Source: Sphaerolaimus hirsutus (Eukaryota; Nematoda; Chromadorea; Monhysterida; Sphaerolaimidae). From it: a DNA stretch of 64,000 nt. Numbering within the stretch: position 1 is the stretch's first letter; each line of letters begins with the position of its first letter. The translations under genes and the position numbers were made by a program. The stretch spans positions 26,795,785 to 26,859,784 of the forward strand of contig OZ038452.1 in assembly GCA_964036195.1 (NCBI GenBank), in the 5' to 3' direction. This document shows positions 23,501-63,826 of the stretch, piece by piece. Under the pieces are notes generated by a model, which did not search any database, had not been told where the DNA came from, and was given only the letters and a program-made list of their open reading frames with translations.

Positions 23501-24286
23501 CACTTTGAATTGAGATGGGAACACTAACATTGATTTTTTTGAGTTTTATTATTAAGCTCTAATTACGAAATTAATTTTGATTAATAATTTAATGAAACCG
23601 TTAAAAATATAAAAAATATATTAATTGGAACTTTTTTCGGGAAAAAACTCGAAAATTGGAAAAAGTATTGTCGAAAAATTTTTCACAACATTTTCAAACA
23701 GTCTGCCATCGTAAGGCATCTCTAAACGTTCACTCGTCTCAATGTCGCTCAGGCTACGGGTGCACGACGGACGGCTACACGAAGTACATCAACAGCTCGG
23801 TGTGCGACTCGCGCGGCCGCCGCCGGCACAAGCCCATCATATTCGACGTGCCCGTCGACCCGGCGCACAAGCAGCTCTGCTACGCGCAGCTGCAGCACAA
23901 GCGCTCGCGCACCAAGCCCGCGCCCGGCGCCGCCGTCGACAGGTGGCGCTACCGGACCCTGGAAAGTGCCCTGGATGATGTCTTATGTCGTGCAAAGTGT
24001 CTGAAGTCAAGCAAAGTGTCTGAAGTCAAGCAAAGTGTCTGAAGTCAAGCGAAATGACCTGGAAATGGCAGCAAGGCGTGTCATTTTCCAGTGCATTTTA
24101 AATGGTTTTTGACACTTTGCCTGACATTTTACATTTAAAGGCCATTTTACATGATTTTTTACTCTGGGTGGCATTTTACATTTCTAGTGCATTTTTCATG
24201 ACTTTTGACACTTTGCATGGTATTTGACATTTTACAGGGCATTTTACAGAGTCTGGGAGTGCCCCAGGAAACACACTGTCTGCTGA
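20546..24286 (+). CDS. MPPED: MPPED1/MPPED2-like metallophosphoesterase (UPF0046), 8 exons, about 440 aa
   Basis: Exons: 20546-20804, 20870-21024, 21324-21522, 21996-22266, 22627-22745, 23374-23484, 23753-23942, 24268-24286 (stop TGA). All have GT-AG borders and the phases close (1323 nt). Residues 1-138 are a basic, low-complexity N-terminus ending in PVRPMPLDTP. The phosphoesterase core follows: VRFVCVSCTH (about 144-153), GGDFTSMGLPEEV (D187), VVAGHKE (about 214-220), LLDKWNLIPSGVDVLLTHGPPLG (H330), VELLNTVCKRVRPKYHVFGHVHQG (H368, H370) and YGCTTDGYTKYINSSVC. The family are metal-dependent cyclic-nucleotide phosphodiesterases of animals. Here the first motif is CTH where DTH is usual, and GNHE reads GHKE, so catalysis may be weak or lost. 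The last intron is a CWG transposon. If it is not spliced, exon 7 reads to a stop at 24040-24042. A GTAAGT donor at 20479 suggests an upstream non-coding exon. The start is the first in-frame ATG of the first coding exon and is tentative. Confidence 0.88.
21089..21287. mobile_element. CWG-TIR element in MPPED intron 2
   Basis: Starts about GGGCAGTCCGGGACCTG and ends CATGGGACTGCCAC followed by CAG (21288-21290). The left target copy is degraded. Internally it shows TGTAAAGTG/CACTTTAC-type inverted repeats. Confidence 0.6.
21762..21893. mobile_element. CCGTATT MITE in MPPED intron 3
   Basis: Ends CCGTATTACCTCGAAATACC and TTCGAGGTAATACGG; TA on both sides. It ends 102 bp before exon 4. Confidence 0.78.
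22764..23114. mobile_element. CCGTATT-family MITE in MPPED intron 5
   Basis: Starts CCATATTTACTCGAATAATC and ends TTATTCGAGTATGTACGG; TA on both sides. Confidence 0.7.
23943..24264. mobile_element. CWG-TIR element forming the last MPPED intron (CAG target)
   Basis: Starts GTGGCGCTACCGGACCCTGG and ends GTCTGGGAGTGCCC. Flanking CAG copies are at 23940-23942 and 24265-24267. The first two bases are the donor GT and the second CAG gives the acceptor. Splicing yields GAC AGG AAA CAC in frame. Confidence 0.8.
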
Positions 24287-24289
24287 ACG

Positions 24290-25306
24290 CTGCCACACAT
24301 GGACACATTCAAAATTTCTGTGTGACTCGGGCTGATTCTATTTCATCTTTTTGCTTTAAAGGATGTTATTTCTATTGTAAATAGAGTGTGGAGAGCTGAA
24401 CAGTCTTTTTGTCCTTCTTAGTTGCTCATAGACATTTGGTGACTTTCAGTCACTTTCATGTTTGACATTTTGCTGAGGGAATGTTGTAACCTGAAACACT
24501 GGCTTTTTCAACAACATTTTATGCAGTAATATTCATAAAATAGTCATGTGGTAAACAGTCTTCCCGTGGGCGCTGTGTATTTTGTGCCTGCAGACATCTG
24601 CCGAGCTAAATACTCTTCGCGTAATACGCACAGCGCACAAAACTTGGCAAACTGCCAGTCAAGGGGCAGTAACCGGAAGTACATTGACCCCATCCCCGTA
24701 GGCGGTATGACGAAATAATAAATAAAATTGTATGAGCATGAAGTTATAGAAAAATAAATGGAAGTGCGTTGACTAACGTTGAATAAAAAACGCTTCGGTT
24801 GCAACGATCTATAAACATCGAGTTTCGTCTGTTGTTGTACAATCAGCAACGCAGAAACTTCTCAGTGAAGCGCAGTGCGTGCCGCTCTTTCGGTCTGCAG
24901 GTGTGCAAAGGCATATAAAACTAGCCAGATCGCCTCGGGATGTGTGTATTTGACAGATCGTATGTGAAATTGGCTAACGTCCAAGTTTGTATTGGATACG
25001 GTTGGATACAATTGGATATTGTAGGAACGAGAGTCACTGACGTAGAATTTCGTTTCGCGTCACCGATAATGGCCGAAGAATGCGATTAAGCAAACGAAAA
25101 TTGTCGCTAATAGCAGCCCACAAACTAGGCGACAGATTGTGACGTATGTGTACAAACGGTGTATCCAAACGGAACTTTTGGACAGCTGCCAATAAAGGCT
25201 GCTTTCACATAAGGGTTATCGCCAGAGTTGACCACATAACGGAACTGCCGGCGTGTAAATAGTGTCTCTCGGTAGCTACACAGGGGCTGATCGCCGCAGC
25301 GCAGCG
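24290..25306. promoter_or_regulatory. MPPED-SLC12A9 intergenic region and SLC12A9 5' flank
   Basis: Overlapping AATAAA words at 24717-24726 could end MPPED transcripts. The last 90 bp before ATG 25307 are GC-richer and probably 5' UTR. I see no TATA box. Confidence 0.4.
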
Positions 25307-28300
25307 ATGAGCGCCAACCCGAGCTCGCTGGGCGGCGCGCAGGGCAGCGGGCCCGACGTGCAGTTCCGCGCCGCCGTGCCCACCTACGGGTGAGTCACCG
25401 CCGCGACATTTCACAATCCTTATCCTTGTAAGTCAGTGGGCAACTTGTTTCTGTCGGGCCACAGCACGGGGCCGGGCGACGCGGACGCGGTGCCGGTGGA
25501 CCCGGCCGCCAACGGCATCAACAGTACAAACCAGACGGATGAGCAGCTGGCGCCGCGCCAGGGCGGCTTCAAGCGACGCAAGATTGATAAGACTCCGCTG
25601 TTGCACTGTGAGTTGGCACTTTCAGTGTTGTGTGCGTGACAAGAATCTTTTAAAGGTAGAATTTTGGTCATTTTTAAGTTACAAATTTGTTTTTACGTTG
25701 AGTTTGACTATAACATCTGATATTTTGGCAAATAGTAAAGTGCCAGCGAATAGCAAGCAACTACCTGTATTTTGTAAGCCAAACAATTTATTTTATATTA
25801 CTTACAAACATCTTATGTCTTTCCAATTAAAAAAACATAACAGTGACCGCAACGCAACTGCTCGGAACAGTGCGAACCCCCTCAAAAGGCCACCCCCGTT
25901 GTAACCACAACTTTATGTCTAAAATCTCTCCTACCGTCGCAGCGGACTCTATGAACGAGATGTCCGGGGGGTCGCTGGCGCCAGTCACCAACCCGCACGG
26001 CCTGTCCACCTTCTCGGGGGTGTTCGCGCCCGTGGCGCTGTCCATGTTCTCAGTGCTGCTCTTCCTGCGCATGGGCTTCGTCGTGGGCCAGGTGCCACTT
26101 CTGGACGCTGGAAAATGTCCTGTGAATTGTAAAGTGTCGTGTAAAGTGGCTGAAGTTATGGAAAATGTCCTGGATAATGTTGACTAGTTGACAGTTCGTG
26201 TGTACTAAATTTTGGTTGATTATATCGTTTCAATTTTCCTATGTGATAGAGCCAGGGACGTACGCAGGATTTTTGAGCGGGGGGGGCGGATTGTATACGG
26301 AGCCCGGCGAACGGGGGGGGCGGCGCCCCCCCCCCTAAATTTTGGGCCTCTAGTAAAGGAATGGAGCCGTGGCGCTGGCGCCATTTGTAGGCGCCAGCGC
26401 CATGGCAGTATTGGCGTTGGCGCCAACGTCTACTATATAGGTATCTATTTATACCTATATATATAGTAATATTACCATTTTCGGTACTTTTTAATGCTCT
26501 TAAACCGTAGAAACATACATATTGGATGACGGGGTGGGGATTTGCGCGCTTGCGCGCAAAATTTTTTAAAAGTGACTACAAAATCGGTTAAGAAAAGTGC
26601 CATTCCTGGCAAATTTTTATGCCCGGCCCGGGAACGGGGGGGGCGGCCGCCCCCCCCGCCCCCCCCCTGCGTACGCCCTTGGATAGAGCACTGTTAATTT
26701 TATATCCCGACACTTAATTATCATTGTTTCTGTTAAGTGTGATGATGTGATCAAAGAATTTTTCAGTTATTTAGTTGACATTCAGTTGACACGAATTTGC
26801 GATGTCAACTAGTCTGCGGGACCAAGATGCAATTTTCAAGCGTCACTTGTCACTTTGCGTGACATTGGACATTTCCCAGGGCGTTTAACAGTGTTCGGAA
26901 GTGGCCCCAGGCGGGCGTGTGGCTGACGCTGCTGCAGCTCTTGATCGCCTACGGCATCGTGCTGCTCACGGTGCTCAGCCTGTGCGCCATCAGCACCAAC
27001 GGGGCGCTGGAGAGCGGCGGCGTGTATTGTGCGTTTTGGGGGCGATTTCAGACAATGTGAAATGACATGTAAAGTGGTAACGCCTGTAATGTCCTGCAAG
27101 GTGTAAACGTCATATAAAATGTCAAACTTTATTTTAATTTTTTGGGGTCCCGGATGACGATGCCAGCGATTGTTTGGAGCGATTTGAAAAAGTAGGGCAG
27201 GTTAAAAAATATTGATTTTTTTTCCAACCCTAGTTGGAGGTAGGGTTGAAAAAACCTAATTGTTTTTTTTTCAAACGCCAACCTTTTTTAATAAAATGTA
27301 CTCGCAGACATGATATCGCGCGCATTGGGCCCAGAGTTCGGCGGCGCCATCGGGCTGTTGTTCTTCCTGGCCAACGTGTTCTCCTGCGCACTCTACCTGT
27401 CCGGCTTCACCGAGGTGCTGCTCAGCAACTTCGGACCGAATGGTTCGTTTCATCTACCTTTCCGTTGCTCGACCAGGGGGCAGTCCCGGATAGGGTTGGG
27501 GAACCGAACCGACCCGAACCGAACCGAGAACCGAGCACTATTTTGGAACCGAGAACCGGAACCGAGCTTGAGAACCGAACCGGAACCGAGAACCGGCACT
27601 TATACCCGGAACTGAAGTAAATACCCGAAAGAACCGAAATTTTGTAAGAATCTTTCCAAGTTTTTGAACAGCGTTTTTTCAACACCTACATCTAAGCCTT
27701 TAAACAGCAGCTGAACATCTTGGTGCGTGTTCAGAATTGCAAAATTCATCTGTTTGCAAAATGATTGCGCGTAATTTCGTGTAATTTCACATATACTCCA
27801 GCGACATTACACCTTACAATGAAATCTACCATATCCCACCTGAATAAAAGAACAAACATAAACAATTCCCATCATATTTATCAAATTGCTTTGATAAATA
27901 TTATGAAATTTTTTTATGTATGTTCGTTTATTCAGATGGGATATGGTAGATTTCATTGTAAGGTGTAATTAGGGTTCAAACGGGACAGCAGTCCCGGTAC
28001 CTGGTTCGGCAAAAAAGTTGGGACTGGGGTGGTCCCGGTCCCGACACCCCAGTCCCGGTCCCAGTCCCTGTCCCGACATTCAAATTATCCTGGTCCCGGT
28101 CACGACCACCCAGTCCCGGTCCCGGAATTGTTCAGTGGTCCCGACTTTGACGATATGCGATGGAAAAAAATCTCGTTTTTACCATCCCTTCTACAAATTT
28201 TTTTCCAGCACTCCTAAATATAGTTGCGAGTAAACAAATACAGGTGTACGAGACACGCGGTAGTAGTTTATGATGTTATGTATGTATAGCATTATAACAG

Positions 28301-31300
28301 GTGATTTCTGGCAAAAAATACATGTCTAACGACCCAGACCCGGTCCCGGTCCCGATAATCCCAGTCCCGGTCCCGACAGTCCAGTCCCGGTCCCGACATT
28401 GGAAAATTTCTGGTCCCGGTCCCGAAAACTGGTCCCGTTTGAACCCTAGGTGTAATGTCGCTGCAGTATACACATTATCACTGGTAGTAGTTTTCATTGG
28501 TTTTGTGGCAGTTTTAACCGTAGTTGGCAAAAGTTATTTATGTTTGTACTCAAAATAATACGCGTACTCACTCGCGTACTACATAAATACATTTACGTTT
28601 CCTCCAGAAAAAATACCAGTACTCATTTACTCGTGTACTTTTTGAAAGTACGCGAGTACAGAAAACGTATATGTTTGCTTTTACACTTTTTTAAATACCA
28701 GTATTCTTATAACAACTCTGATTTCTGCATTCTACCATGAAATAATAAGCTGTGATATGCTCCTGTAGTATGAAATATCCAACCAATGTACCTCAATACA
28801 CATGTAAACTTGGGTATATTGTTTTTCTGTTGTTCAGCCGATTATTACCCGATACCCGGTTATTTTATTACCCGGAACCGAAATTTTGATCATTTTAGAA
28901 CCGAAAGAACCGAACCGGAACCGAGTTTAAGAACCGAACCGAGAACCGGAACCGAAAATTTTCAGGAACCGAGAACCGATACCCGAACCGAAATCTTTTG
29001 GAACCGAGAACCGGAACCGAAAATTTTGAAATTCCCAACCCTAGTCCTGGACCCTGTGAAAGAGTAAAAGTATCTGTAAAATGTCATGTGTCATGTAAGA
29101 CCCTGTAAAGTGTCATGGATTTGGATACAAATTCATAAAATTTGGATACGATTAGGGTGTCAACTTTCCGTTTTCCGTTTTCCGTTTCCGCTTTCCGCAG
29201 GCAAATTTTTTTCCGTTTCCGTTTTCCGGCTGCTAAATTTTTTTTCCGTTTCCGTTTTTCCGGCTCATTTTCCGTTTTCCGGCAATTTTTTTCAATTGTT
29301 CTGCCTTTTTCCGTTTTCCGGTTCAATTGTCTGTTTTTCCAACTTTTTTCAACTTTCCAGCTCAATTTTCTGTTTTCTGTTTCAGCCAAACTTGTAAAAA
29401 TGCATAGAGGTTCTCAATGAAGTGAATTGTTCCTATTTCTAGTGAGATTTCTGCAAATTTTTTTAATTCAGGATAAATTTCTGCAAATTTTTTTCCGTTT
29501 CCGGCAAAATTTCAGCAAATTTTTTCCGTTTCCGGCATAATTTCAGCAAATTTTTCCGTTTCCGTTTCCGTTTTCCGGCCTTCCATTTTTCCGTTTTCCG
29601 TTTTCCGGCAAGTGCAAAATTTTTTCCGTTTCCGTTTTCCGGCATGTGCAAAAATTTTTCCGTTTCCGTTTCCGTTTTCCGCCAAAAAGTTTTTGTTGAC
29701 ACCCTAGATACGATACAATATCATTTAGATACACATGACACTTCGCAGGGTCTTTTACAGGACACCTGATACCTGCCATTTTACAGGGTCTGGAACTATG
29801 ACATATTTAACTGGAACATGACATGTTTATGACATTTTACAGGGTCTTAACTGGCTGGCACCAGGGCGTTTAGCCGTGTTTTCCACACGTATTTAACTAG
29901 CGACAACCGTTTAAAAAACGATTTCATTCATACTAATAAAAAACCCAGTTTTCCCACCCAAAACGGCCCGACCAACCCTTCCCGCAGGCTACAGTCTGCC
30001 CGACGACTCTGCGGGCGTGCTGCCCGACAGCTACGGGTTCCGCCTGCTGTACGGCTGCGCCGCCGCCTTGCTCATGCTGCTCGTGCTCATGGTGGGCAGT
30101 GGCGCCTTTGCGAAGCTCTCGGTCGCCTTCCTGGCGCTGTTGGCGCTGTGCTACGCCAACTTCGTGTGCAGCTGTTTGTTCTCCGGCGCCAAGCAGATCG
30201 CCATTCCCAAGGTGCGCGTGTGCGGAGATTTAGCGCGCGTCGTTTGCGCTTGAGTGTTGGGTTCAAACGGGATCGACTTTTTGAGATCGGGATTTTTTTT
30301 TGAATTTTCGGGATCGGGATTAGGGTCTGGATCGGGATCAATTTTAGTACAAAATTCTGGTATTTCAGTTTTTTCTTTAATTTTTCACAAAAAAGGTCGA
30401 AAATGGCACTTGGATAGGAGAGAAGTGGCATAAAATGCACATTGGCCGTTTCCATTCACATTTCTCAGTGAATAGAAAGTTATTTGGCAAATTATTTCGG
30501 GATCTGGTTTGGGGAAATTTGGGATTGGGATTTAAAAATTTTCGGGATCGGGATCCCGTTAAAATCCTACTTGACTGTACCTTGTCGACCGTAGACCGAC
30601 GACTACGTGTACACGTGGCTGGACGACAACGGCACGCAGCACCGCTACAACGAGACCCAGTACCGCAACTACACCGGGCTGTCGTAAGTGGGGCCTGTCA
30701 CATTTCACCTTGACACTGGGTTAGGTGTAGGGTGTCAACTTTCCGTTTTCCGTTTTCCGTTTCCGCTTTCCGCAGGCAAATTTTTTTCCGTTTCCGTTTC
30801 CGTTTTCCGGCTGCTAAATTTTTTTTCCGTTTCCGTTTCCGTTTTTCCGGCTCATTTTCCGTTTTCCGGCTAAAATTTCAGTTTTTCCGCCTTTTTTCCG
30901 TTTTCCGGCTCAATTGTCTGTATTTCCAACTTTTTTTCATTTTCTGGCTCAATTCTCTGTTTTCTGTTTCAGCCAAACTGGTAAACATGCATGCAGGTTC
31001 TCAATTATGTGAATTGTTTCTATTTCTAGCAAGATTTCTGCAAATTTTTTGATTTCTGGATAAATTTCTGCAAACTTTTTCCCATTTCCGGCAAAATTTC
31101 AGCAATTTTTTTCCGTTTCCGGCATAATTTCAGCAAATTTTTCCGTTTCCGTTTCCGTTTTCCGGCCATTCATTTTTCCGTTTTCCGTTTTCCGGCAGGT
31201 GCAAGATTTTTTCCGTTTCCGTTTCCGTTTTCCGGCAAGTGCAAAATTTTTTCCGTTTCCGTTTCCGTTTTCCGCCAAAAAGTTTTTGTTGGCACCCTAG

Positions 31301-34300
31301 TTAGGTGAGGGGTTGGGAAAAACGCCTTGATTGGAAAATATCAATTTAAAACATTGATTTTTTAAAACTAAAATCAATTTTTTTCCAAAATTGTCCAAAA
31401 TTGCAGTATAGAGCAAAAATAAGTGTAAATATGTTAAGTCTCGAATAATGTTATGTCTATGTGGTTATATTATGACTGGAGTCATGGGATAGCGTTATAA
31501 GCAGTGACCTCACTGTCAATCTGCAAGTGAAATTGCGCGATTGAAATCAGATTTTTTCAAATAAATTCAGTTAAGAAAAAAATCAAGCGCCATCCTTGTG
31601 TCGTTTTGTACTCAACGCACCCCTCGCTCGCAGCGCGGCCACATTCGCGGGCAACACGCGCTTCAACGGCACGTTCACGCACGACTACACGACCAACGGC
31701 GAGATGAGCTTCGCCACCGTGTTCGCCATCGTGTTCAGCGGCGTGACGGGCATCATGGCCGGCGCGAACATGTCCGGCGAGCTGAAGCAGCCCAGCGTGT
31801 CCATCCCCAAGGGCACGCTGCAGGCGGTCGGCGCCACTTTCCTGGTGACACTCCCGGAGCCTGTGAAATGCCCTGTAATGTCTAATGTCGTGTCAAATGT
31901 GAAAGACATGGAAAATGTTCCGCTAAATGGCAAACGTCATAGAAAATACCCTGCAAAATGGCCAACGAAAGTTTGCCACTTTGCCTTCCACGACTTCCGA
32001 CACCTTCCATGACATTCGACATTTCCCCGGGCATTTTACATGACCCGAGAGTGCCGCCCGGTCTACGTGCTGACCACTTTCCTGCTGGGAGCGACGTGCA
32101 CGCGCGAGCTGTTGCAGAACAACAACGTGGTGGCGCAGGAGATCAACTACCCCAGCTTGGTGATCGTGCTGGCCACGCTCGTGACCACGTTCTACGCGGC
32201 CATGTCGAACTTGCTCGGGGCCAGCCGCGTCATGCTCAGACTGGCCGAAGATAGGATATTCGGTGTGTATTTACTTGCGTGGCGCTTTTCGTGGCTCTTT
32301 TAATTGTTTTTTTTAAAACGAGTTAATATCGATTGAAAGTCTTCTAGTCCGCTTCTTAGGGATAGAAGCAACTTCTTTACGCGACCCTGTTTCTTGAGAA
32401 TGTTTTTCTAATTGTCAAACGTCATTACAAATTTGGAAAAAATCAAATTAAGGAAAACATTGTTTAAATAAACTGGATCATTAAAAACAACATTAGATAT
32501 ATTTACTACTCGTGTTAGCATGCTCAAATCATACTCTGCCAACATGAGGCAACTCTCACTGTGGCTCTTAGGCGACATGACGTCCCCGCTGGCGTACACG
32601 GTGGGCAACCGGAACCCCGTGTTCTCGGTGCTGCTCGCCTGGCTGCTCGTGGTCGGCATGCTCGCCATCGGCTCGCTCAACAGAATCGCCAAGATCGCAT
32701 CCATTTTCTTCCTCCTGTCCTACATGGGCGTCAACTTGGCCTGTCTCGCCCTGGACCTCGCCTCCGCGCCCAATTTTAGGTATTTTTTTTGGGTTTTGTG
32801 CTTTTTTTGTATTTTTTGAGAATGGTGTCGCTTGACAAGTCTAATTTCGCCTTGGGTCCACGCCTTAGTTGACATCAAAATTAGTATTAACTAAGTTTTG
32901 GTTATTATGTAATTTCAACTTTTCTACGTGATAGAGCAAAGTGAGTTTTTTACCAGGACATTGATTTTCATTGTTTCTGTCAAGTGCGATGCTTCACAAT
33001 TTTTTGTGTTATGCAGTCGACATTCAGTTGACATTTATTTGAAGCGATGTCAACTAGGCGCTCTATAGGCCCCTGTCGTTGCTACAACCAGTGCACTAAC
33101 CCCTGGCCACGTCGCCCACGGGCAGGCCGCGCTTCAAGCTGTTCTCGTGGCACCTGTCGCTGGCTGGGGCGCTGAGCGCGGTGGCCATGTGCTTCGCCAT
33201 CGAGGACATGATGGCCGGCGTGGCGCTGGTGCTGCTCCTGCTGCTGCTCATGCTGCTCCATTACAAGGTGGCGTGGTGGCCTGAGCCACAGGTCCATGTC
33301 TGCCCCGCACGCTTTAGCTGCGCCGGGCCCCATTGCGAAGTTCTACTCGTTGTGTTGGCGCGCTCGATTTCGGCGTTGAGCAGTGAAACCCATGAGCGGA
33401 TGACGTAACTAGGGATGGAAATGAACGATTTTTTATCAATCCCGTCTATTGAAAACAACTTTTCGTCAACTTAAAAAAACTTTAAAACTTTTTGAGCCAC
33501 CCAGTAATGAGTCAACCTAAAAATATACATACCGTATTACCTCGAAATACCCCCATGGGGATTTATTATTTCGCCAGCTAAATTTGAGGGGGGGGGTAAT
33601 TCGAGGGGGGGGGGTTTATTCGAGGTTTTTTTTATTATTTCGTCAGAAATTTTCGTAGGGATCTTCGTCAGAAACAGGTGATAAATGTGTCCAAACGGGG
33701 TATATTTTGACATAAAAACGTAGATAGCTACACAAACTAGTATATGTGTAGCTGCAATGCAAATTAGCAGTAACATACATCATGTACATGACGTACATTA
33801 TTCCGAGGGGGGTGTTTCGAGGAGGGTTATTATTTCCCCAGCCCATTTTGAGGGGGGGGGGTTAATTCGAGGGGGGATAATTCGAGGTAATCGGTAGATC
33901 CGCCCAATGTGCAATTTATCGATTTTTCCCACAAAAGGAGTACTCAATTTATTAACTTTTTGCTGTATGCCACACACCGCGTGCACTTTCTTCGACAAGA
34001 TGCATTCGCTCACGTGTTTGCTCATGTTTGTGAAGCTTTTTAAGTTGACAAATATCATAATCGTAAATTCAAACATTCAAAATTTAAGTCGGTTTTTATT
34101 TTTTTCTAAAATGCAAACATTCGTGACTAATTTATTTAGTAAATGTATTTGATGCGGGTGTCGCACGCGGTAGAACTTTGCGCTGGCCAGTTTCCCGTAA
34201 ATAGCACACTGAACATTGTCTAACGGTACGCTGGTGTGACGCGCAGGCGCCGGCCGCCTCGTGGGGGTCGATCTCGCAGGCGCTCATCTTCCATCAGGTG

Positions 34301-37300
34301 CCTGTCCCAGACCCTGTAAAATGCCATGTAAAATGTAAAATGTCATGTAAAGTGTCAAAAGTCGTGGAAAATGCCCTGCAAAATGGCAACAGTTGCCATT
34401 TTGCAGGGCATTTTCCACGACTTTTGACACTTTGCATGACATTTTACATTTCACATGGCATTTTACAGGGTCTGGGACTTGCACCAGGTGCGCAAGTACC
34501 TGCTGCTGCTCGACGTGCGCAAGGAGCACGTCAAGTACTGGCGGCCGCAGATGCTGCTCATGGTGAAGTCGCCCAGCACGTGCGCGCCCCTCATCGACTT
34601 CGTGAACGACCTCAAGAAGAGCGGCTTGTACGTTATTGGTGGGTGGGTGGGTGTGGGTTGGTTGACTGGAGTGTGGGTTTTTTCAAGGATTCTGATTAGG
34701 GATGACACTTTATTTTTTCAACTGATTTTTATTTAAAAATTCGGATTTTGATATAAAAATCGGATTTTGATTAAAAATTGACATATAAAAAAATCAAGAT
34801 GTTTGAAGAAATTTTTTTTCCTACCCTCATCCCGATTTGTCTTGATATGTCTAATTACTCAATTTCCATGATGAAGTCTGAATGAGTATAAATATGTTCT
34901 ATTTGCCTATACCGAGTCGAAAACCCACCTCACTACCTTTCTGAATAAATGTTTGTGCAATTCCCGCCCCAAGGTCTAAATCGTGGCGACTTTTTAGAAT
35001 ATTGACTAAATAGATTATAGATTGGCTAGTGTATTACCATGTAGTTTTGTAGTTTTTAGATATAAAATTGTGATTTATTGTAACTTTTTGAAGAATAAAA
35101 CGACTCGCCCTTTTCTTCATAACCCTGTACAACCCTAAACGCAACTACCGCATCACGCCAGGGCACGTGCGCGGCGGGACTTTGGACGACTTCTCGGTGG
35201 ACCCGCTGCACGAGAACTACCCGTTCTGGCTGTCGCTGGTCGACTACCTGAAGGTGAAGGCGTTCGTGGAGCTCACGCTGGCGCCCAGCGTGCGCCACGG
35301 CGTCGCCCAGCTCGCCAGGCTCGCCGGGCTGGGCGCCATGAAGCCCAACACCGTCGTGGTCGGCTTCCCGCACCACCAGCCCGTGGGTTTACTGTTGTGG
35401 TGCCCTCACATTGACGGGGTGTTCTTGTGTTAGATGCCTAGTGAGCTATTTATCTTTCTGTGCCTGGGGTAGGTTCGACAATTTGAGGAGTAAAAATCTA
35501 ATTTAGAATAATTATTATGAAATAATTTTTTTCCTTTCAACTTTTTTCTTTTTGAATGTTTACGTCTCACTTCTCAATGTTTTTTTTTATATTTCACAAC
35601 TTGCGGAATTGGCCCGGGGGTATAAGTGCTTAAAAACTGAAATATTTCTGATCAATTCTTTATATCAAATGTAAAAGTGAGAAATATGGATGAGGAGAGC
35701 TCCATTCTAAATCACACAAATATTTTGATCTTTTGATCTTCCTATAAGTCACTCACTAAATAAATTAATGCATGTATACGGTGCATAAAACAAATAGCGA
35801 CACTTCCCCCTTATATCATTTGGAAGTGAAAGATCAAATTCGACTACTTCTCATGGAATTACAGCCATTTTTCCATGTAAAAATTAATGCACTGAGCCGA
35901 TACCAGAAACCACTTTCCAACTACTGGATATTCATGAATTAGAAAAACGGGTGTCTTTACCCACACTACCCAAGCTTAATTTTTTTTTGTATTTAATTCA
36001 GAAATGACCAAATTGCTGCATAAATTTTTAAATGCATAAATGATCAACAGGGCTATCTGTCATGGAATTCTGATGGTGTCATACTGTGTAAGAATTTGAT
36101 GAACAACGCTCATCGAAAACAAACTGTTTAGTTGAGGGGGGAGGTTGTGTTGCTCTTGAAGCCTCGGAGAAAAAGTGAACCCCTTTCAAACAGTCCTTAC
36201 TTTGTGCAAACATTGACAAAAAATGAAAACTGAAATGAATTCCACAATCGCTGACAAATTGTTTGCGTCTACGCAAATATTTATCGAAGAAAAAAAATTC
36301 ATGGCGTCAATTAATCACACAAAAAATGTTACATTTCTGAACGCTACCTGTATAGATTATTGTAAACCTAATTTGCTGCAGGTGGAAAACACGTTGGACC
36401 AGAGCAAGCTGCTGAAGAAGCTCAAGTTCGCCAAGTTGGAGCGGCAGGAAGTGGTCGAGTATTTCACCGCCAGTCAACTGCCGCCGGCCGCCGTGAGTTG
36501 ACGAAATACTCTATGTGCTGCTCTTTCGTTGAACTGGGTCGGATCGAGACAAGCTGCAATTTAGTTGCAATTTGACTATTGACATGTTGGCAATTAAATA
36601 ACAGGAGTACAGTAGCCGAAATGGATAGAAAATTCCTACAAATATTTATACAACCATGTATAAAGCCAAAAATAGCTAGTTCGAAGATGACACTTGGTAA
36701 AATGGATTAAAAATTAAAAATTTTCTGTGAAATTGGGGAAGGATTGCCCAAAATTTGCTCCACATAGATGGCTGTGCGATTTTAGGGGAGGGGGGTGCTC
36801 CCCTAGCCCCCCAATTAAGACCCCTGGAAAAACCAGATCCCAACCACTGAAAAACTAAAAAGCGGTGGGAAAACGTGGAACGTGACTCGCAGCCGAGCTC
36901 GAGCGATAGCGGCGGCGCGCCCAAGCTGAGCGCCAGCGAGTACGTGTCCATGCTGGTGGACGTGTTGAAGCTGAACAAGAACCTGGTCGTTGCCAGGCAC
37001 TTCGACAAGTTCGACAAGGCAGACACCTTCCAGTCTGTTTTGCTTTTACCTGGAAAACGTGTTAAATTGTCTTAAAAAGTTAAATTGTCTTTTATGTTAA
37101 AAAGTGTTTTTCCAAAGCGACTTCTTTTTTTCAAAAATGGTTTTCGAATTTTGGAATCTTTTTGATTACTTCGATTTTCGAAATTTCCTTTGCCATCGTT
37201 AAGGTAGACCTACCCAGCGTGCTTCGCAGGGCGTCTAGCCGCACGGCGCAGTACATCGACGTGTGGCCGGTGGACGTGGTGCGGCCGACCGAGACGAGCT

Positions 37301-38260
37301 TCGGCTGGGACAACAGCTGCTTGTTCGTGCTCCAGCTCGCCTGCATACTGAACATGAGCCACGGCTGGAAGACGCACACCAAGCTCAGGGTGTTCTTGTG
37401 CGTCAACAGCTTGCAGGTGCGTTCTGGGGGTAGTGTCCTGTAAAATGTCAAATGTCACGCAAAGTGAAAAGTCATGTAAAATGCCCTGAAAAATGGCAAA
37501 CGTTTGCCATTTTGCAGGGAATTTTACATGACTTTTCACACTTTGCGTGACATTTGACATTTTACACGGTCTGGGATTGGCACCTGCTCGTCAGCCCAAC
37601 TAGGACACTAGCGCCACTGCAACGCTTCTCGCCCGTTTCGCAGGACATGCAGCGGCGCGAGCGCCAACTGCGCCAGGTGCTCAGCCAGCTGCGCATCAAG
37701 GCTCGTTCATTGGTCGTGCCCTGGGACCACGTGGTGTGCCACCTGGCGCCCCAGGCCGACTCGGCCGAGGACATCGAGCCGGTGGGCAACGCGGCCGACC
37801 TGCCGCACGCGTACGTGGCCGCGCTCAACGACATGATCAAGCGGCACAGCGCAAACAGCGCCGTCGTGTTCGTCAACCTGCCGCCGCCGCCCGCAGAGGT
37901 GAGTGGGTGTGCAGCCGGTGCCTGGGCCCTTTGCAATTCTGGGTCGTTGAAAGTACTGGACTTCTTTTCAAAGTAAACTTAAAAACAAAGTTTTTTTTGG
38001 AGAAGTATTTTAGCAACGCGAGTAAGTGAGCACCGGTATTTTTCGGGAGGAAACGTAAACGTATTTACGCAGCACTCGAGTATACGTATTTATTGAGTAA
38101 ACGTAAATATGTTTTAACAACTACGCTTTGCACAGCAGTAGAGTCTCTGCAGGCGTCGTCGCACGAACGCTACCTGGGCGTGCTGTCGGAGCTGAGCGCC
38201 GAGCTGCCGCCCACGGTGATGGTGCACGGGCTGAGCAGCGTCATTTCCACGGCGCTCTGA
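25307..38260 (+). CDS. SLC12A9: SLC12A9-like cation-chloride cotransporter family protein, about 19 exons, about 950-980 aa
   Basis: Exons: 25307-25389 (tentative), 25437-25607, 25943-26091, 26911-27028, 27308-27442, 29988-30211, 30595-30683, 31634-31844, 32052-32262, 32572-32779, 33126-33267, 34247-34297, 34488-34638, 35162-35382, 36382-36492, 36893-37008, 37230-37416, 37644-37898, 38153-38260 (TGA). Phases close from exon 2 to the stop; exon 1 to exon 2 does not close with consensus sites. The exon 16 donor (GTTCGA) is weak. Landmarks match SLC12A9: [20 protein letters not shown] (TM1), [121 protein letters not shown] and a C-terminal [14 protein letters not shown]. The family are 12-helix membrane proteins with a long cytosolic C-terminal domain; SLC12A9 is an orphan member. 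Exon 7 carries likely N-glycosylation sites (NGT, NET, NYT) in an extracellular loop. Introns 3, 8 and 12 are CWG transposons end to end. Confidence 0.92.
26092..26907. mobile_element. CWG-TIR element forming SLC12A9 intron 3 (CAG target), with nested MITEs
   Basis: Starts GTGCCACTTCTGGACGCTGG and ends TTCGGAAGTGGCC(C). CAG stands on both sides (26089-26091, 26908-26910). The exons join as FVVGQ|AGVWL, continuous in the family. It has been enlarged by a GTTGAC-type MITE that itself contains the hAT-like MITE 26253-26681. Confidence 0.82.
26253..26681. mobile_element. hAT-like MITE, CAGGGACGTACGC family, in SLC12A9 intron 3
   Basis: Ends CAGGGACGTACGCAGG and CCTGCGTACGCCCTTG; perfect 8-bp duplication GATAGAGC (26245-26252, 26682-26689). 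A diverged relative lies near 59285-59430. Confidence 0.85.
27790..28475. mobile_element. Palindromic MITE nested in 27491-29043
   Basis: Arm GACATTACACCTTACAATG near 27801 pairs with CATTGTAAGGTGTAAT and TGTCGC near 27950-28460. Its right arm is split by MITE 27970-28448. Confidence 0.65.
27970..28448. mobile_element. hAT-like MITE filled with GGTCCCGGTCCCG repeats
   Basis: TIR TAGGGTTCAAACGGGA; perfect 8-bp duplication GGTGTAAT (27962-27969, 28449-28456). It is the innermost of the nest. Confidence 0.88.
29153..29706 (-). mobile_element. hAT-like MITE, GGAAACGG family, in SLC12A9 intron 5
   Basis: TIR TAGGGTGTCAAC; 8-bp duplication GATACGAT (29145-29152, 29707-29714). Opposite orientation to 3096-3667. 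Confidence 0.88.
30257..30569. mobile_element. hAT-like MITE, GGGTTCAAACGGGA family, filling SLC12A9 intron 6
   Basis: Starts TTGGGTTCAAACGGGATCG; ends GGGATCCCGTTAAAATCCTA. Duplication CTTGAGTG/CTTGACTG (30249-30256, 30570-30577). It leaves only 45 bp after exon 6 and 25 bp before exon 7. Confidence 0.75.
30728..31299 (-). mobile_element. hAT-like MITE, GGAAACGG family, in SLC12A9 intron 7
   Basis: Begins TAGGGTGTCAAC; 8-bp duplication GTTAGGTG (30720-30727, 31300-31307). Confidence 0.88.
31845..32057. mobile_element. CWG-TIR element in SLC12A9 intron 8 (CTG target)
   Basis: Starts GTGACACTCCCGGAGCCTG and ends CGAGAGTGCCGC. Flanks are CTG (31842-31844) and CCG (32058-32060). There is no AG at the right junction. 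The only phase-keeping AG is inside the TIR at 32050-32051. Confidence 0.78.
32857..33073. mobile_element. GTTGAC MITE in SLC12A9 intron 10
   Basis: Starts GGGTCCACGCCTTAGTTGAC and ends GATGTCAACTAGGCGCTCTA. Same family as 52796-53019. Confidence 0.6.
33532..33894. mobile_element. CCGTATT MITE in SLC12A9 intron 11
   Basis: Ends CCGTATTACCTCGAAATACC and TTCGAGGTAATCGG; TA on both sides. Confidence 0.78.
34298..34484. mobile_element. CWG-TIR element forming SLC12A9 intron 12 (CAG target), 187-bp palindrome
   Basis: Starts GTGCCTGTCCCAGACCCTG and ends GGGTCTGGGACTTGCAC. CAG flanks both sides (34295-34297, 34485-34487). Almost the whole element is one inverted repeat centred near 34391. Exons join as [12 protein letters not shown], continuous in SLC12A9. 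Confidence 0.88.
35395..36380. other. SLC12A9 intron 14, AT-rich, nothing recognised
   Basis: About 1 kb between exons 14 and 15 without recognisable TIRs or coding sequence. Confidence 0.5.
37427..37583. mobile_element. CWG-TIR element in SLC12A9 intron 17 (CTG target)
   Basis: Starts GGGGTAGTGTCCTGTAAAATG minus its last base and ends TCTGGGATTGGCAC. CTG copies at 37424-37426 and 37584-37586. It is inserted 10 bp after the donor of exon 17. The arms are near-perfect inverted repeats. Confidence 0.75.
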
Positions 38261-41826: not shown

Positions 41827-41873
41827 TTCATACAGCTGTAAAACTGCGGCGCGCTGTGTGCAAACGCATGCTG

Positions 41874-44023: not shown

Positions 44024-44164
44024 CTACACACGCTAGTTGACATCGACACACAATGTCAACTGGTTCCGTTCCTAATTCCGTTCGTCCACTCGTCGACGAG
44101 CTTTGGATCGGGATCGGCACCAGTTGACATTTTGTGTCGATGTCAACTAGCGTGTGTGAGCCCA
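44024..44164. mobile_element. Compact GTTGAC MITE 120 bp upstream of the TMCO4 start codon
   Basis: CACACGCTAGTTGACATCGA at the left pairs with TCGATGTCAACTAGCGTGTG at the right. An inner CAACTGGTT/ACCAGTTGACA pair is present. It lies in the likely promoter or 5' UTR. Confidence 0.65.
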
Positions 44165-47200: not shown

Positions 47201-50200
47201 TGATGATTCAAGTGACCATTATAGCATTACTGACAAGCAATTTTTTATCACATAAAATGCCCTGTGGAATGTCATACAAAGTGTCAAATGTCAAAAGTTA
47301 TGTAAAATGCCCTGTTAAATGTAAAAAATATATTTTCACTGGTAGTTTCAAATTTTACCGTTTATTTTACACAACTTTTGACACTTGACACTTTGCATGG
47401 CATTTGACATTTTTCAGGGCATTTTACGGGGTCTTGGAATGGCTCCAGGTGCACGCATGCGACTGGCAACTCACGGACACTGTGGACACCATTGCCATTG
47501 ATGTCATGCTAACGCCTGTTGTGGTCATACTTGACGCACTCTGAAAAGTTGATCAAAAGTTAATCTGAAAAATTTAATAAATCAAATTTAATCACGGGTG
47601 AGGCATCAAAATCAGGAATAAAGATAACAATTTATTATGTTGCGATTTTTTATTATTTTATCTTTAAAATGATGACTTTGCTGAGTTTTGTTATTTTGAA
47701 TGTCGAAAAAATTGGCTGCAGTAAATTTCTATATCACTTATAAAAATCAACTACAAAATTATAATCATCAATAACAAGTAAATCTAATACCCCCATTGCG
47801 GACCGCCACATAGCTCCACTCATTTACAAGTTATTCACGCAAATGCGTAATTGTCACTTTTCCACCACCTCGCTTTACGACCAATTACGCAAGTGCCCGC
47901 CGATTTCCTTATGGGCATAGCGAATTTGTGGCGGGCGTGCACGCATTGAGGGCTTGAGGCACGCCGCTGCAAAAAAAACAAACAGAAAAAACAAACAAAT
48001 AAAAACAATCCCGATCCCAATATCGGTCCCGAAAAGTCAATTCTATTTGAATCCTATTACGAGGTGGTGGTAAAGTGACAATTACGCGTTTGCGTGAATA
48101 ACTTGTAAACGAGTGGAGCTATCGCATTCATATTTTCAGGTATCCTTTCCTATATAGTTGTTAATGTTGACTTAAAATTTGTCGTGAATCCGACCACCCA
48201 GTGACAAGTTATTCGAAATCTAGAGCGTACGTCCATATTGCCGCACCCTGTAGATTCTATAAGTGTAAATACTTGCATTGAGAGTTTACATGCGCTGACA
48301 GTTTCACCCGTCAGCTGCCACACCCAGACCCTGTAAAATGCCTTATACAATGTCAAATATAATGCAGTGTCACAAGTCATGTAAAATGCCCGGTAGGTAA
48401 AATATAAAATTTTCTTTTATTTTTTTACTGGTCATTTCTCATTTTTCCAGACATTTTCCATGACACTTTGCTAAGGTTCAAACGGGACTGACTTTTCGGG
48501 ATTGGCTTTTTGAGCTTTCGGGATCGGGATCGGCATTGGGCTTTCGGGATCGGGATTGGTATTCTGAGATTTCGGGATTGGGCTTTCGGAATTGGCATTT
48601 TTTCGGGATCGGGATTGGGATCTTTGAAAAAGTTATCATATTGAAGGATTTTCTCAAATTTACTGTAAAATTAGGTCTAAAAACACGCACAAATGCCGGA
48701 AAAGTGCCGTAAATTGGACATTGGAGGTTCCTGGTCACATTTCTAGTGCAAAAATGTTGTTGAAAAAAGTTGGCAAATTTTCCGGGATCGGGATTGTGTC
48801 AAAATTTTCGGGATCGGGATTGGGATTTCAAAAGTTTCGGGATCGGGATCCGGATTCGTTTTTTGAGATTTCAGGATCGGGATTGAAGTTTCGGGATCAG
48901 GATCGGGACCACAAAATCCCGAAATTTCTCGGGATTGGGGATCGGGATCCCGTTTGAACCTTACACTTTGCATGATGCTAGACATTTTACAGGGTGTGGG
49001 ACTGGACCCAGGTGCACGCAAGCGACTGGCAACTCACGGACACTGTGGACACTGTACCCATTGATGTCGTGCTATCGCTAGCTGTACTCCTGCTCGTAGA
49101 TTGGCTCCCTGTCGTGACCGTGTTTGCTGCCCTCTGAAACATTTATAATTTGAAAGCTTCAGTGGTTTGAAACACTAGCTTTTTTACATTTGTTGTTTGA
49201 AATTGCCCTAGTGGTTTCTCGAAACACTTTGTAAAAAATCAGAAAAAGAAGTTTCAATAAAAGTTTGCGTACTCCGCTTACAGCACGGTGTGCAGCAACC
49301 GCACATCGTATATCTTACGCGCAAACGCGTTAACGCGTTAATTGCACTGGCGATTGCACAAACGCGCACACACCATCACTTGATAAAATATTTATAAAAA
49401 AGTAAAAAGCTGAATTGTAAGCCTTTACGTAGTGGGAAGAGACATGTCTTTGCTTTACCACCTTTTAGTACAATTTGACATTTGAAGAAACTTGACATCA
49501 CGCCCCATTGTGCATCTGTTTTTGCACTTTTTAAATTGCACAACAGCAGCACTTTACTGTTCAGCACAGTGTTTGATTGAAAGGCAATCGTTTGAAGGCG
49601 GAATCAACAGATTATGTTTCGCGCCTGAAACCATTTTTTCCTTTTTTGGAACTATTTATTATGGCGTCATGATTATGATTTTGGCCAGAAATATATGCAT
49701 AGCATGCGGTCTGCGGAGTATAGACCAAGATTATACCCTCGAAATTTCCTCGAATTACCCCCTGGGTTAATTTTTTCAGAGTGTTAATTTTGAGGGGGGG
49801 GGGGGGTAAACGAGCGGGGTTATTATTTCGCCAGAACTTTTTTGAAATCCCAGTACTAAATTGTTGTTTGTAACGTACACATACGTTGAAAAATGCAACA
49901 GAAACCGCCATAGACTTAGGTATATAAGTACGTAGACGGAAAAAACCCTGTTCTAACATAGACAGTCATTGTTTTTAACGTGTGTTCTGCGTTTCCCGGA
50001 TCACAAACCGTAGCTTTTGTCATTTACACTATATCTGGGGGGTATTTCGGGGAGAGGTTTATAAATTCATAGTGTCCATTTTGAGGGAGGGGGTATTTCG
50101 AGGGAGGGGGTATTTCGAGGAAATACGGAATTATAATTAACCGGATTTCGCGTGTCGTATAACAAGTTGGCATAAATGACACTTCGACATTCACCCTCCC

Positions 50201-53200: not shown

Positions 53201-56200
53201 CAATTTTCAAGTGATTTTCAGATATGAGTAAAGTGAAAAAAAGTTGCGCACTGACATTAGTGAACTTTTTTCACTTCACTCATATCTGAAAATCACTTGA
53301 AAATGTGTCAAGTGAAAAAAACAGTGAAAAATAGCCATTTTTCACTGTTTTTCATTTGACACATTTTCAAGTGTTTTTCAGATATGAGTGAAGTGAAAAA
53401 AGTTTACTTATGTCATTGCGCAACTTTTTTTCACTTTACTCATATCTGAAAATCACTTGAAAAAGTGTCAAGTGAAAAAACGGGCATATGTGCGTATCGG
53501 GCACGTGTGCGTATCAGTGCACCCCCTAAAATTGCAACTGCCAAGTCAAATGATTCCCGTCTCACTAGGGTTCAAACGGGATCCCGATCCCGAATTACGA
53601 AAAATTACGGGATATTATGGTCCCGATCCCGACCCCGTGTCTCTAATCACGATCCCGATCCCGAAAACCCGACGAAAAAACAATCCAGATTCCGAAAAAT
53701 CAATCTCGTCCGTACACTACTTGTCACTTACCACTTTAATTGTCACTTGTCAACTGGCGGAATTGGTCCCTGGCGGAGCCCACCGTGGACGCCTACGTGT
53801 GTACACTTTTCACTGCGCAGCACCAAAGGGTTGGTAAGGCGGCACGCCGGTGACTGTGACTGTTCCGTGCTCGCTTGCAGTGTTGTACAGTCGTATTTTT
53901 TTAGTTGCGTTTGCACATTCCCGTGTATTTTGCGCACAATGTGCACATTTTGCGTTTGAGTGTCATCTCTTTGAGTATACACGACTTGGGTTTTTTTGGT
54001 GTCGCGTGTGTGTGTGTGTATTTACGTGTGTGAGTGTGCGTAATTAGGACAAAAGTGCGTTCGTACAACACTCGTCGCTTTTGTACAACTGTGGTATAAA
54101 TATATGCATTCATCATATTTTTAATACCGTTAAACATTCAAGACGATATGTAGGCCCGATGGCAGAACCGCGCCCTGTAAAGTTTCAAATGTGGTGCAAA
54201 ATGTCAAATGTTCAGCAATAAAGTCATTTTTGTTTTCATATTATTTGGCACTGAGTGTTGTACGAATGGAATTTTGTCCTAATCTGATACTCCCTGTGTG
54301 TGTCCTGCGGTGCACTTTGAGCGGCGAGTTCTTTACATGTCGCAGGGCCGCCGTGGCGGACAGACAGCGCAAGGCGCGACGGACCAAGTACAAGCGCTGG
54401 GCGCTCGTCGGCGCCACCGGCGCTGTGGGCGGCGTGCTCATTGGTCAGTGCCGTTGCCAAACCCCGCCCCCTGCCCCGCCCCATTTGCAGTTTTGCATGT
54501 ATAATACACCCCTATTTATAATTCGAAATTCGAAATAAGAAGTCTAGTTACCGCAGGAATGTTTTTAAAATGTTAGGGCAAAGACATTGTAAATAGATAC
54601 GGTATTTCCTCGAATTAGCCCCACCACCTTGAATTGGATTTTTTTAGTTTAGGTATTATTGGTTACTCTCAAATTTTTCAACAAAAAAATACAAAAACAC
54701 TTGGGTGCTAGAGAACGGGCATTAAACGCAGGTTTCCATTAGCATGTCACAGTGCAAAAAGTCATTTGGCAGATTTGGCCAATTCTTCAGGGATTGGGAT
54801 TGGGGAAATTTTATTCGAATCACCATAAGGATTTGAAAATTATCGCGATTCCTGGTGCCACTCCCAGACCCTGTAAAATGTCCTGTAAAATGTCAATGTC
54901 ATGCAAAGAGTCAAAACCCTTTGCCAGTTTGCCAATTCAGGGCATTTAACATGACTTTTGACACTTAGCTTGACATTTGACATTTTGCAGGGCATTTTAC
55001 AGGGTCTGGGAGTGTCCCCTGATCGGGATGCTTCCCATTCGAACGCCAATCTGCCGCCGACGCGCGCGCCCTCTATCGCAGGCCTGACGGGCGGGCTGGC
55101 GGCGCCGATGGTGGCCGCGGGTGCGGGCGCTGTTATCGGCGGCACGGCGGCCGGCATAGCCACCACGGCGGGCGCGGCCGTCATCGGCACCCTGTTCGGC
55201 GTGGGCGGCGCCGGCCTGGCCGGCTACAAGATGTCCAGACGCGTCGGCGCCCTGAGCGAGTTCGTGGTCGAGACCTTGACTGACGGACAGGTACGAGCGC
55301 GCGTTGACGCTACTGCGCTAGTTCGCGAGGCATCACTGGTCAACTGGTTCCCATCCCAATTCAAAGCTTGCTCACGAGAGCCGACCAACGACCTTCAAAT
55401 GTAAAAGTGTTAAATTATGTTGTAAATAAAGCTGTAATGTTCAACAAATTTGCAATGTGCAAGGCCGTATGAAGTATTTACATGTGTATACAATATAGTA
55501 CGTAGTGTTACCCGTGAGCAAGCTTTGAATTAGGATGGGAACTAGTTGACATTCAGTGTCTTTGTCAACTAGTGTGCGAGACCATTGCGGTCACACGGCT
55601 GGTCGCTGCAGAACGTGACACTTTGCGTCGCGTCGCAGTCTCTGCACGCGTGCATCGCCTTATCCGGCTGGGTGACCAGGGACGACTCGCTGGCGTTCAA
55701 GGACCCCTGGCGGCACCTGCGCTGCTCGTCCGAGCAGTACACGGTGCGCTACGAGTCGCAGCACCTGCTCGAGCTCGGCCGCGCCATGGATTACTTCATG
55801 AGCTCGGCGGTCACCTTCGCCATACACCAGACGCTCATGGAGACGGCGCTCGCCGGTGCGCGCTTCTTTTTGGGCCTTGTTTGGTCTCTCGAGTTGATAG
55901 TTCAGTTTGGTGCCAATCTCAGACCCTGTGTATAGGGTGGCAGAATTTACCGTACCGTACCATACCGCATTTTTGGGAAAATTACCGTACCGTACCTTTT
56001 ACCGCAATTTTATAAATTTACCGTACCGTACCGCGTACCGCATTTTCCAAAATTTACCGTACTGTACCGCGTACCGCACTCATTTACCGCATTTTATGCG
56101 TAAATTTTACTCAGATTTACCTTACATTTTTCAACATATTGATGACAATTGATGTGGTGTTCTGCAAATTTTTTGCGCACAAGTGCGCAATATTCACAAC

Positions 56201-60720: not shown

Positions 60721-60727
60721 ATATCCC

Positions 60728-61801: not shown

Positions 61802-62345
61802 GCGCCACTTTTTGGCAGCTATTGCTTTTTGTCCCCATCTAAGGGAAAAATGTCCCCATCTCTGTAAAACGGGAAAAATTTACCGGCGTTCAACATCCCA
61901 CGTGACGTTTGTGTCATTTTCTATATGACATTTTCTGGACTTACTGGTTCGTTACTGGGCTGTCTGTGCGTTTCTCCTTGTTCCTTCTGTGATTTGCAAC
62001 CTTGTATCCAAATGTTGAGTAGACAAATAAATGGAATGACTGAGAAGTTGGCAGCTAGCCAAAAGTTTCGTAATCGCTATAAATATACATAAAATGGGTA
62101 AATAACCATGATATAGACAAAAAATAGTAATTATGAAAGTGAAAATTGGCAATATGGAGCAAATTTTAACCTTCACTTCAGCGGGGCCAGCTTTCACTCT
62201 CCTTCGTACAATACACAATCTGTAGCTTGGACGTGGGCCAACTTCACATATATGACCCGATCCGGTGAAAGGGCAATTTGGCTGGAAAAGTGCCAAAGAT
62301 TTGAGTAAAGTCGGTGTTAGTGAGCGTTGCGGGCACCGGGCAGAG

Positions 62346-63826
62346 ATGCGCAGGGCGGGCGTGCTAGCGCCGCCGCTGGACGATCTGGTGGGCTTTTTGA
62401 ATTTGGGTTTGTTCTCTATTAAATTTTTTCCTTTGTCTAACTTCGTTGCGTCGCGTGTTACGTTAATTCATTTCCACATGCAAATTGTCTTGCGACGCGT
62501 CAACTAAAATCAAATCAACATGGAAGCCAGTTGACAATGTGTGCGTAGCGTCTTTCTATACGTTATTGACCCTCCCATACGTTTGCGCTCACTGCCGCTC
62601 AGCCGTGCCAGCGACGCATGGAGTTCGCATCGAGCGTGGCGTCTTTCGCCGCCGGCACTGGCGCCTCATTGCTGCTGTGCACGTGGCGCGGCGACGTCCT
62701 GTCGCCGGTGCTGTGCGGCTGCGGCGCCGTCGCTGCGGGCGGCAGTGTGCTGCTCGTGCTCAGAGGTGTCTACTCGAAGGGCGACGCGTGGAAGAAGGGG
62801 GTTTTGGTTGGTGAAATGGACTGGCTTATTGCTGTATTTACTATTTTGGACCAGTTACTCGCTATAGATAGGGATGGTACGCCACCAAATTTGATGCAAA
62901 AGTCATCGCAACAAGCACCGCGGTTACTATATTTGCTCGAATATTTCCCCTGTAAATTATTTTTTTGTCAGACTTCAGGGGGGAACTGTTAAATTATTCA
63001 GGGGGGAATTATTATTTCGTCAAGTTTTCAAAGCATGTTTCTTTCAAATCATCTCATAAAATATGCTTTATAACGAGAATAGCATGCCATTTTTGTTTTT
63101 ATTGAACCCAGGCCAGGGACACATCAAATGTACACTATGCCTAAAAGGGAATTTGTCGATGAGGAAATATTCCATATGCGAAACTGGACTGGTAAAGCTT
63201 GCGAGCAATTTTTTTAACCATTTTACCTGGTGCATAAATACCGGTCCTTTTTTGCTAACCCATAACAGTTTTTGCTAAAGATCCTTTTTTAAATCAAAAC
63301 TTGAAAATCGCTCACCACCTTTAATGGGTGCATAGCAGGTTTCAAAAACACGCATCGCTCGCAGGCCCCATGCGTGACCAGCGCGGTGCTGGGCGCTGTG
63401 GTCGGCTGCTCTGCCACCTTCTGCTTGACCGGCACCGAATCGCCGCCGCCGCTGCTGCAGCTGGGCGACGGGCGCAGCGTGCCGCTGCAGCGCGACCTGT
63501 TCGTGCCGCTGTCCGTGTTCGCGCTGCTGGTGCCACTCCCAGACCCTGTAAATGCCCTGTAACATGTCAAATGTCATGCAAAGTGTCAAAAGTCATGAAA
63601 AATGCCCGTCATTTTGTCATGAAAAAGTGGCAAACGTGGGCACTTTATAGGGTCTGGGAGTGCCCCCTGGCGAGCGTGTTCCATTTTGGCGAGTACGCGG
63701 CTATGGCGCTGATCCGCGAGCGTCAACTCAGCTGGGACTCGTTCGTGATCAACCACTCGCGCGAGTACGGCCTCGCCCTGCTGGCTGCTTTGGTTGAGTA
63801 CTGCCTGCTGGCGTACTTTGCTCCTG
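62346..63826 (+). CDS. ICMT: ICMT-like isoprenylcysteine carboxyl methyltransferase, 5' part, runs off the window
   Basis: Exons: 62346-62387 (tentative), 62603-62806, 63365-63529, 63661-63826, then a GTGCGT donor with the rest beyond the window. Phases close. The product begins MRRAGVLAPPLDDL, then a hydrophobic helix-rich part (FASSVASFAAGTGASLLLC, LSPVLCGCGAVAAGGSVLLV, TSAVLGAVVGCSATFCL), then SVFHFGEYAAMALIRERQLS and DSFVINHSREYGLALLAALV. The last stretch matches the FHYSEY and SLDSFLLNHSLEYT region of animal ICMT, the ER-membrane enzyme that methylates prenylated CaaX C-termini. The catalytic SAM-binding C-terminal half is outside the window. If the first small exon is wrong, the start is ATG 62618. 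The intron 63530-63660 is a CWG transposon with a CTG target; the predicted acceptor adds Cys-Pro-Leu before ASVFHFGEY. Confidence 0.85.
63530..63666. mobile_element. CWG-TIR element in ICMT (CTG target), 137 bp
   Basis: Starts GTGCCACTCCCAGACCCTG and ends GGGTCTGGGAGTGCCCC, with CTG on both sides (63527-63529, 63667-63669). The usable acceptor AG is within the TIR at 63659-63660. Confidence 0.82.

Follow-up and report, generated by a model that had tools for sequence, protein, structure and literature searches.

Transposons that insert into exons and are then removed as introns would offer genomes a direct route to new introns, and elements of this kind bear on the old question of intron origin. 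Introners of Aureococcus and Micromonas (Huff et al. 2016) are reportedly elements with terminal inverted repeats (TIRs) that form flush introns, one splice site coming partly from the target copy, while the tunicate Fritillaria (Henriet et al. 2019) is said to carry non-canonical introns that may derive from DNA transposons. Introners in general are repeated, mostly non-autonomous DNA transposons with TIRs and 3-9 bp target copies that reside in exons (Gozashti et al. 2022, PMC9860276). In some families one splice site is contributed by the element and the other by the target copy, and some introners add codons (e.g., 12 nt in a case from Aureococcus). The same 2022 survey points to their rarity in animals: when animals and land plants are taken together, introners turned up in just two groups, each of them an animal group, and the word nematode is absent from its main text (PMC9860276). 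A different set of elements, the NuwaI group of PHIS (PIF/Harbinger-ISL2EU-Spy) transposons, occurs mainly in animals and duplicates a 3-bp target, 5'-CWG-3' (PMC4482050). The 64-kb stretch of contig OZ038452.1 analysed here (the window, 64,000 nucleotides) contains copies of a high-copy, CWG-targeting TIR element which, when lying in a coding exon with its GT end on the sense 5' side, is quite probably removed as an intron. The family would accordingly be introner-like, and it is perhaps a PIF/Harbinger-type (NuwaI-like) miniature inverted-repeat transposable element (MITE) of a nematode-like animal.

A sequence-only reading of the window had assigned five stretches (e1-e5, Table 1) to one TIR family with 3-bp CAG or CTG/CCG flanks, and both parts of this assignment hold. 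All five stretches carry the family ends, the TIR 19-mer GTGCCACTCCCAGACCCTG has 14 matches with at most three mismatches in the window versus none in 100 shuffles, and BLAST of the five copies against the window detects more relatives; the flanks are CAG/CAG in e1, e2, and e4, CTG/CCG in e3, and CTG/CTG in e5. Within the window, e5 and the non-exonic copy at 54855 alone carry the exact 19-mer; genome-wide it occurs 1,399 times (698 forward and 701 reverse; 348-Mb assembly, 762 contigs), versus zero for the reversed control pattern. When a 23-mer is compared instead, e1, e2, and e4 show 2-6 mismatches at their ends. The left end of e3 has four mismatches over the 23-mer and its right end six relative to the GGGGC variant; this right end is absent among the 23-mer matches with up to six mismatches, and an ungapped inverted repeat sought in e3 was not found. 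Its TIR score and BLAST similarity to e4 (75% over 140) suggest that e3 belongs to the family.

Target preference and element structure were surveyed in 28 loci (8 + 20) drawn from the first 100 listed of the 1,399 exact matches, all on contig C1, a small and non-random sample in which the GT end is exact by selection. One locus (L015) was set aside for lack of a mate end, which leaves 27 of the 28 focal copies. Their flanks are CAG/CAG (10), CTG/CTG (8), CTG/CAG (4), CAG/CTG (1), CTG/CGG (1), CGG/CTG (1), and other (2), so that CNG is found on both sides in 25/27 and CAG/CAG or CTG/CTG in 18/27; the 3-bp CWG target duplication typical of the NuwaI group is thus present among them. The copies with both ends found measure 116-377 bp (n=27), and in being short, TIR-bearing, flanked by target copies, and numerous they resemble MITEs. 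GTGCC is at one end by selection, while GGGGC starts the free end in 14/27; the element tends toward two unlike ends, one starting with GT. Among script-found copies with one CAG and one CTG flank, the left one is CTG in seven cases (L006, L007, L011, L017, L018, L019, and L026) and CAG in one (L023), an asymmetry with a two-sided P of 0.07 obtained with a finder that kept only CNG-flanked copies. This arrangement prolongs the inverted symmetry of the element, and a plain 3-bp duplication should not produce it. Judged by its CWG target, the family is perhaps kin to NuwaI and other PIF/Harbinger elements and perhaps mobilized by a PIF/Harbinger-like transposase. Seven of the 131 open reading frames (ORFs) listed for the window were tried as transposase and rejected, none of them having a Pfam family below E 0.08.

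Three exonic copies, e2, e3, and e4, lie in SLC12A9. With e2, e3, and e4 removed together with one target copy each, the encoded protein aligns without gaps at the junctions with solved KCC2, and in 120/120 homologues (the best 120 listed of 813) the number of extra residues at the three junctions after exact removal is zero; beside e2, 13/120 homologue rows are gapped. The flush position within coding sequence is thereby backed by homology at all three sites. Retention of e2 or e3 would interrupt the host reading frame with stops, and that of e4, which together with one target copy measures 187 + 3 = 190 nt, would cause a frameshift. The closest homologues of the approximately 308 residues are nematode proteins, which are the top 11 by bit score of the 120 compared (56-64% identity); judged from this single gene, the animal is probably a nematode or belongs to a closely related sister lineage. 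The copy e4 folds back on itself, with 99-nt arms that are 94% complementary and separated by 1 nt, unlike e2, e3, and e5. Judged by eye, another repeat family (ends resembling TAGTTGACA..TGTCAACTA) sits inside e2 (26180-26800) and again in an SLC12A9 intron (32830-33060), with similar stretches at about 43550-44150 and 55540. The copy at 37427-37583 was considered as another flush intron of the gene and rejected, as an ordinary acceptor follows approximately 60 nt downstream.

Removal of e5 rejoins an ICMT-like gene, and its retention would place a stop in the host frame. The match to the solved enzyme begins at the junction and the left side is defined by an open frame, so the flush position of e5 appears more weakly supported than those of e2-e4. 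Copy e1 was rejected as an intron: the MPPED2-like match covers residues 9-73 of 108, e1 lies beyond this conserved end, and its joined flanks score as non-coding (codon score -15.0). The proposed placement of five copies exactly at exon borders of three unrelated genes therefore stands for e2, e3, and e4, more weakly for e5, and not for e1; three genes are indeed concerned, but e2-e4 all lie in one of them.

For a broader view, the joined flanks of 40 script-found copies (35 in the 28 loci and five in the window) were given a codon score, values above 5 being taken as coding. The score was trained on window exons and is circular for e2-e5, though not for L018 and L019; the finder accepted elements of 70-420 bp, missed e2, and did not report e1 or the copy at 37427-37583. 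Six of the 40 copies exceed the threshold (e3, e4, e5, two in L018, and one in L019), and e2, scored apart, reaches 18.2. The remaining 34/40 are not scored as coding, which does not support the view that insertions of the family as a whole are introns: its copies are found both in exons and elsewhere. The two L018 copies reside in a chondroitin-synthase-like gene, with PF05679 (CHGN) spanning both junctions; around the first (L018a) the alignment with solved chondroitin synthase 2 is gapless, whereas local similarity is poor at the second (L018b). The exonic copy of L019 (L019b) is located in the first helix of an adhesion-type G-protein-coupled receptor, within a 7tm_2 domain and without gaps relative to latrophilin-3. 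In total, seven exonic copies interrupt coding sequence flush in four genes, as introners do, and for e5 and L018b one side of the junction is marked mainly by an open frame. The focal copies of L016, L027, and L019 were not counted as exonic, their joined ORFs having no Pfam match (nor, for L019, a match among solved structures). The exonic count is a lower bound, the joined ORFs of further loci (e.g., L003, L007, L008, L010, and L014) having been left out.

By score, 3/35 copies in the loci are exonic, compared with 103/2,414 coding-looking CWG sites in the same loci; in the window, 229/1,962 CWG sites look coding. In this small sample, exonic copies are not depleted relative to the exonic share of CWG sites, as would be expected if splicing hides them or if they cost little.

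Candidate splice sites were surveyed with a script that listed in-frame GT-AG pairs near the element borders. A flush pair leaving 0 extra nt exists in 4/7 exonic copies (e2, e4, L018a, and L019b), in all four formed by the first GT of the element and the right CAG flank, while other pairs are needed in 3/7 (e3, e5, and L018b); some in-frame, stop-free pair is present in 7/7 within the limits searched. Exact removal, as originally proposed, is thus available at CAG targets and fails at CTG/CCG targets: in e3 (right flank CCG) the in-frame pairs add 9 or 27 nt, in e5 (right flank CTG) they change the product by +9, +27, -6, or -24 nt, and in neither could a GT-AG intron be excised exactly. The GT end lies on the sense 5' side in 6/6 exonic copies with unlike ends (P 0.016 in a post hoc test), e4 having GT at both ends. 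Where the borders of ordinary introns in the window are legible by eye, they consist of GT and AG.

These features are best accounted for as follows. An apparently non-autonomous TIR transposon would target CWG, duplicate 3 bp, and land in exons as well as elsewhere; a copy that interrupts a coding exon and has GTGCC at its 5' end in the sense direction would be spliced out by the spliceosome, with the TIR's first GT serving as the donor. When the right target copy is CAG, it would act as the acceptor and the coding sequence would be restored exactly. When it is CTG or CCG, the likeliest acceptor may be the AG inside the right TIR (GAG/TGCC, +9 nt), and where this AG has been lost, a nearby exonic AG could serve instead. 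We infer both the actual splicing and the choice of acceptor from the sequence.

Several observations weigh against this explanation. A GTGCC donor fits the usual U1 consensus poorly, and a better-looking acceptor, TTTTACAG, is located 19 nt upstream of the flush border in 4/7 exonic copies (e4, L018a, L018b, and L019; hand count), where its use would shift the frame in e4, both L018 copies, and L019. Splicing of e3 would need a 3-residue insertion in a conserved stretch in which 0/120 homologues have one. Copy L018b, at a CTG target, has lost the GAG of its right TIR, and every in-frame pair listed for it relies on an AG that lies 18 nt into the exon. Moreover, chance alone may often provide some in-frame GT-AG pair per copy, and the counts of exonic copies are small.

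The elements might have landed in pre-existing introns near splice sites and only look flush. An ordinary intron does surround the copy at 37427-37583, which sits 10 nt past the donor, and the copy at 54855-55018 is found shortly before an acceptor; no intron remnant, however, is seen on either side of e2-e5 or the three locus copies, codons reach the 3-bp flanks and open frames rejoin, and conserved protein continues across the junction at e2, e3, e4, L018a, and the L019 copy. Such an origin is highly improbable, and for e2-e5 it was rejected as no remnant is seen. Somewhat less remote, but still quite unlikely, is that the exonic copies are disabling insertions, with the genes or this haplotype broken and nothing spliced. 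The lack of a simple in-frame AG in L018b and of an exact GT-AG pair in e3 and e5 would suit this idea, whereas the SLC12A9 exons are open and conserved even though the ends of e2 and e3 have diverged and probably mark these copies as old. If insertions disabled their hosts, it would be difficult to see why one conserved gene has three copies and another two, and the four exact GT-AG cases and the bias of the GT end would be left unexplained.

Two further explanations overlap with removal of the element by the spliceosome at its first GT, and differ in the sites used. The TIR core (CTGTAAAATG / CATTTTACAG) has a donor-like and an acceptor-like motif, and a donor at CCT/GTAAAA combined with CAG or another AG would leave residues encoded by the TIR in the product; paired with the flush CAG, GTAAAA gives an in-frame addition of 18 nt in e4, L018a, and L019b. 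Yet e2 has lost this donor (GGAAAA), the GTAAAA-TTTTACAG pair leaves 37 nt (hand count) and shifts the frame, and the residues added at e4 would fall where 0/120 homologues have any, so this variant of the proposed mechanism seems unlikely. Alternatively, removal could occur exactly at the borders whatever the target base, via a non-AG acceptor or a route guided by the TIR hairpin. In e3, e5, and L018b the frame is rejoined by an excision for which no exact GT-AG pair exists, the rejoined e3 protein is conserved, and the folded RNA of e5 and e3 brings both ends together (z -9.2 and -6.9, respectively). On the other hand, any TIR yields such a hairpin, ordinary window introns read by eye have GT and AG borders, and the bias of the GT end points to the spliceosome; a border-exact route of this sort is doubtful. 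Equally speculative is a wider scenario in which the family has seeded very many near-neutral exonic introns (hundreds, by extrapolation), its CTG copies being removed exactly through a non-AG or hairpin-guided acceptor and splicing being indifferent to the target base.

Table 1. Copies of the TIR family and host-gene exons in the 64-kb window
Feature	Position	Strand	Remarks
e1, family copy beyond conserved 3' end of MPPED2-like gene	23943..24264	+	not supported as intron
e2, exonic copy in SLC12A9	26092..26907	+	816 bp, other repeats nested inside; CAG/CAG; joins VVGQ to AGVW; exact GT-AG pair
e3, exonic copy in SLC12A9	31845..32057	+	213 bp; CTG/CCG; joins ATFL to VYVL; without exact GT-AG pair
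e4, exonic copy in SLC12A9	34298..34484	+	187 bp, near-perfect fold-back; CAG/CAG; joins IFHQ to VRKY; exact GT-AG pair
e5, exonic copy in ICMT	63530..63666	+	137 bp; CTG/CTG; joins FALL to ASVF; without exact GT-AG pair
SLC12A9 host gene, span of exons read	25941..37898	+	exon limits by eye
SLC12A9 exons (among others)	about 25941-26091, 26911-27029, 31634-31844, 32061-32264, 34249-34297, 34488-34640, 37642-37898	+	by eye
ICMT-like host exons either side of e5	63366..63828	+	limits by eye
Family copy within ordinary SLC12A9 intron, 10 nt behind donor	37427..37583	+	CTG/CTG
Family copy about 60 nt upstream of ordinary-looking acceptor	54855..55018	+	CTG/CTG
Family copy, flanks non-coding by score	6926..7294	+	CTG/CTG
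Family copy enlarged by nested repeat	48315..49008	+	CAG/CAG

Elsewhere in the window, two very similar stretches (47446-47541 and 49009-49134; CAGGTGCACGCA.GCGACTGGCAACTCACGGACACTGTGGACAC...) each start immediately after a family copy's right end and read as a short open frame closed by a stop codon; they may be last exons that were duplicated, or a segment duplication. Plus-strand exons at 44569-59300 appear by eye to resemble TMCO4, and one of them follows closely on the copy at 54855-55018. Another family copy, beginning at 55910, is broken up by a repeat (55935-56650) in which TACCGTACCG units abound.

With 1,399 exact TIR ends and exonic beside non-exonic copies, the genome allows orientation, target base, and element age to be compared with splicing within a single genome, and the split between CAG and CTG targets offers a natural experiment in 3' splice-site recognition. 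The literature searched (including PMC9169325) yielded no account of nematode introners, a search that covered few subscription papers and preprints and is weak evidence of novelty. One literature passage calls Meloidogyne, a nematode genus, a fungus, which is taken here as a slip of name. The suggestion that the window holds an animal case, a TIR family with CWG targets that interrupts coding exons flush and has GT at the start of its TIR, is borne out. Unlike the introners of Huff et al. 2016, which are reportedly algal, with longer target copies (8 bp in Aureococcus) and other TIRs, the family has a 3-bp target; and unlike the introns said to occur in Fritillaria, ordinary borders here are GT and AG, non-AG acceptors being a possibility for the element copies. 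With NuwaI it shares the 3-bp CWG target, the trait that suggests kinship, and an animal host, while the accessible text on NuwaI mentions no intron-forming role such as that proposed here (PMC4482050). It resembles the introners of the 2022 survey in consisting of TIR elements with short target copies inserted in exons, and differs from them in its nematode-like host and in the way it became known: those introners were defined by annotated introns, whereas this family is known from sequence and most of its script-found copies are non-coding (PMC9860276).

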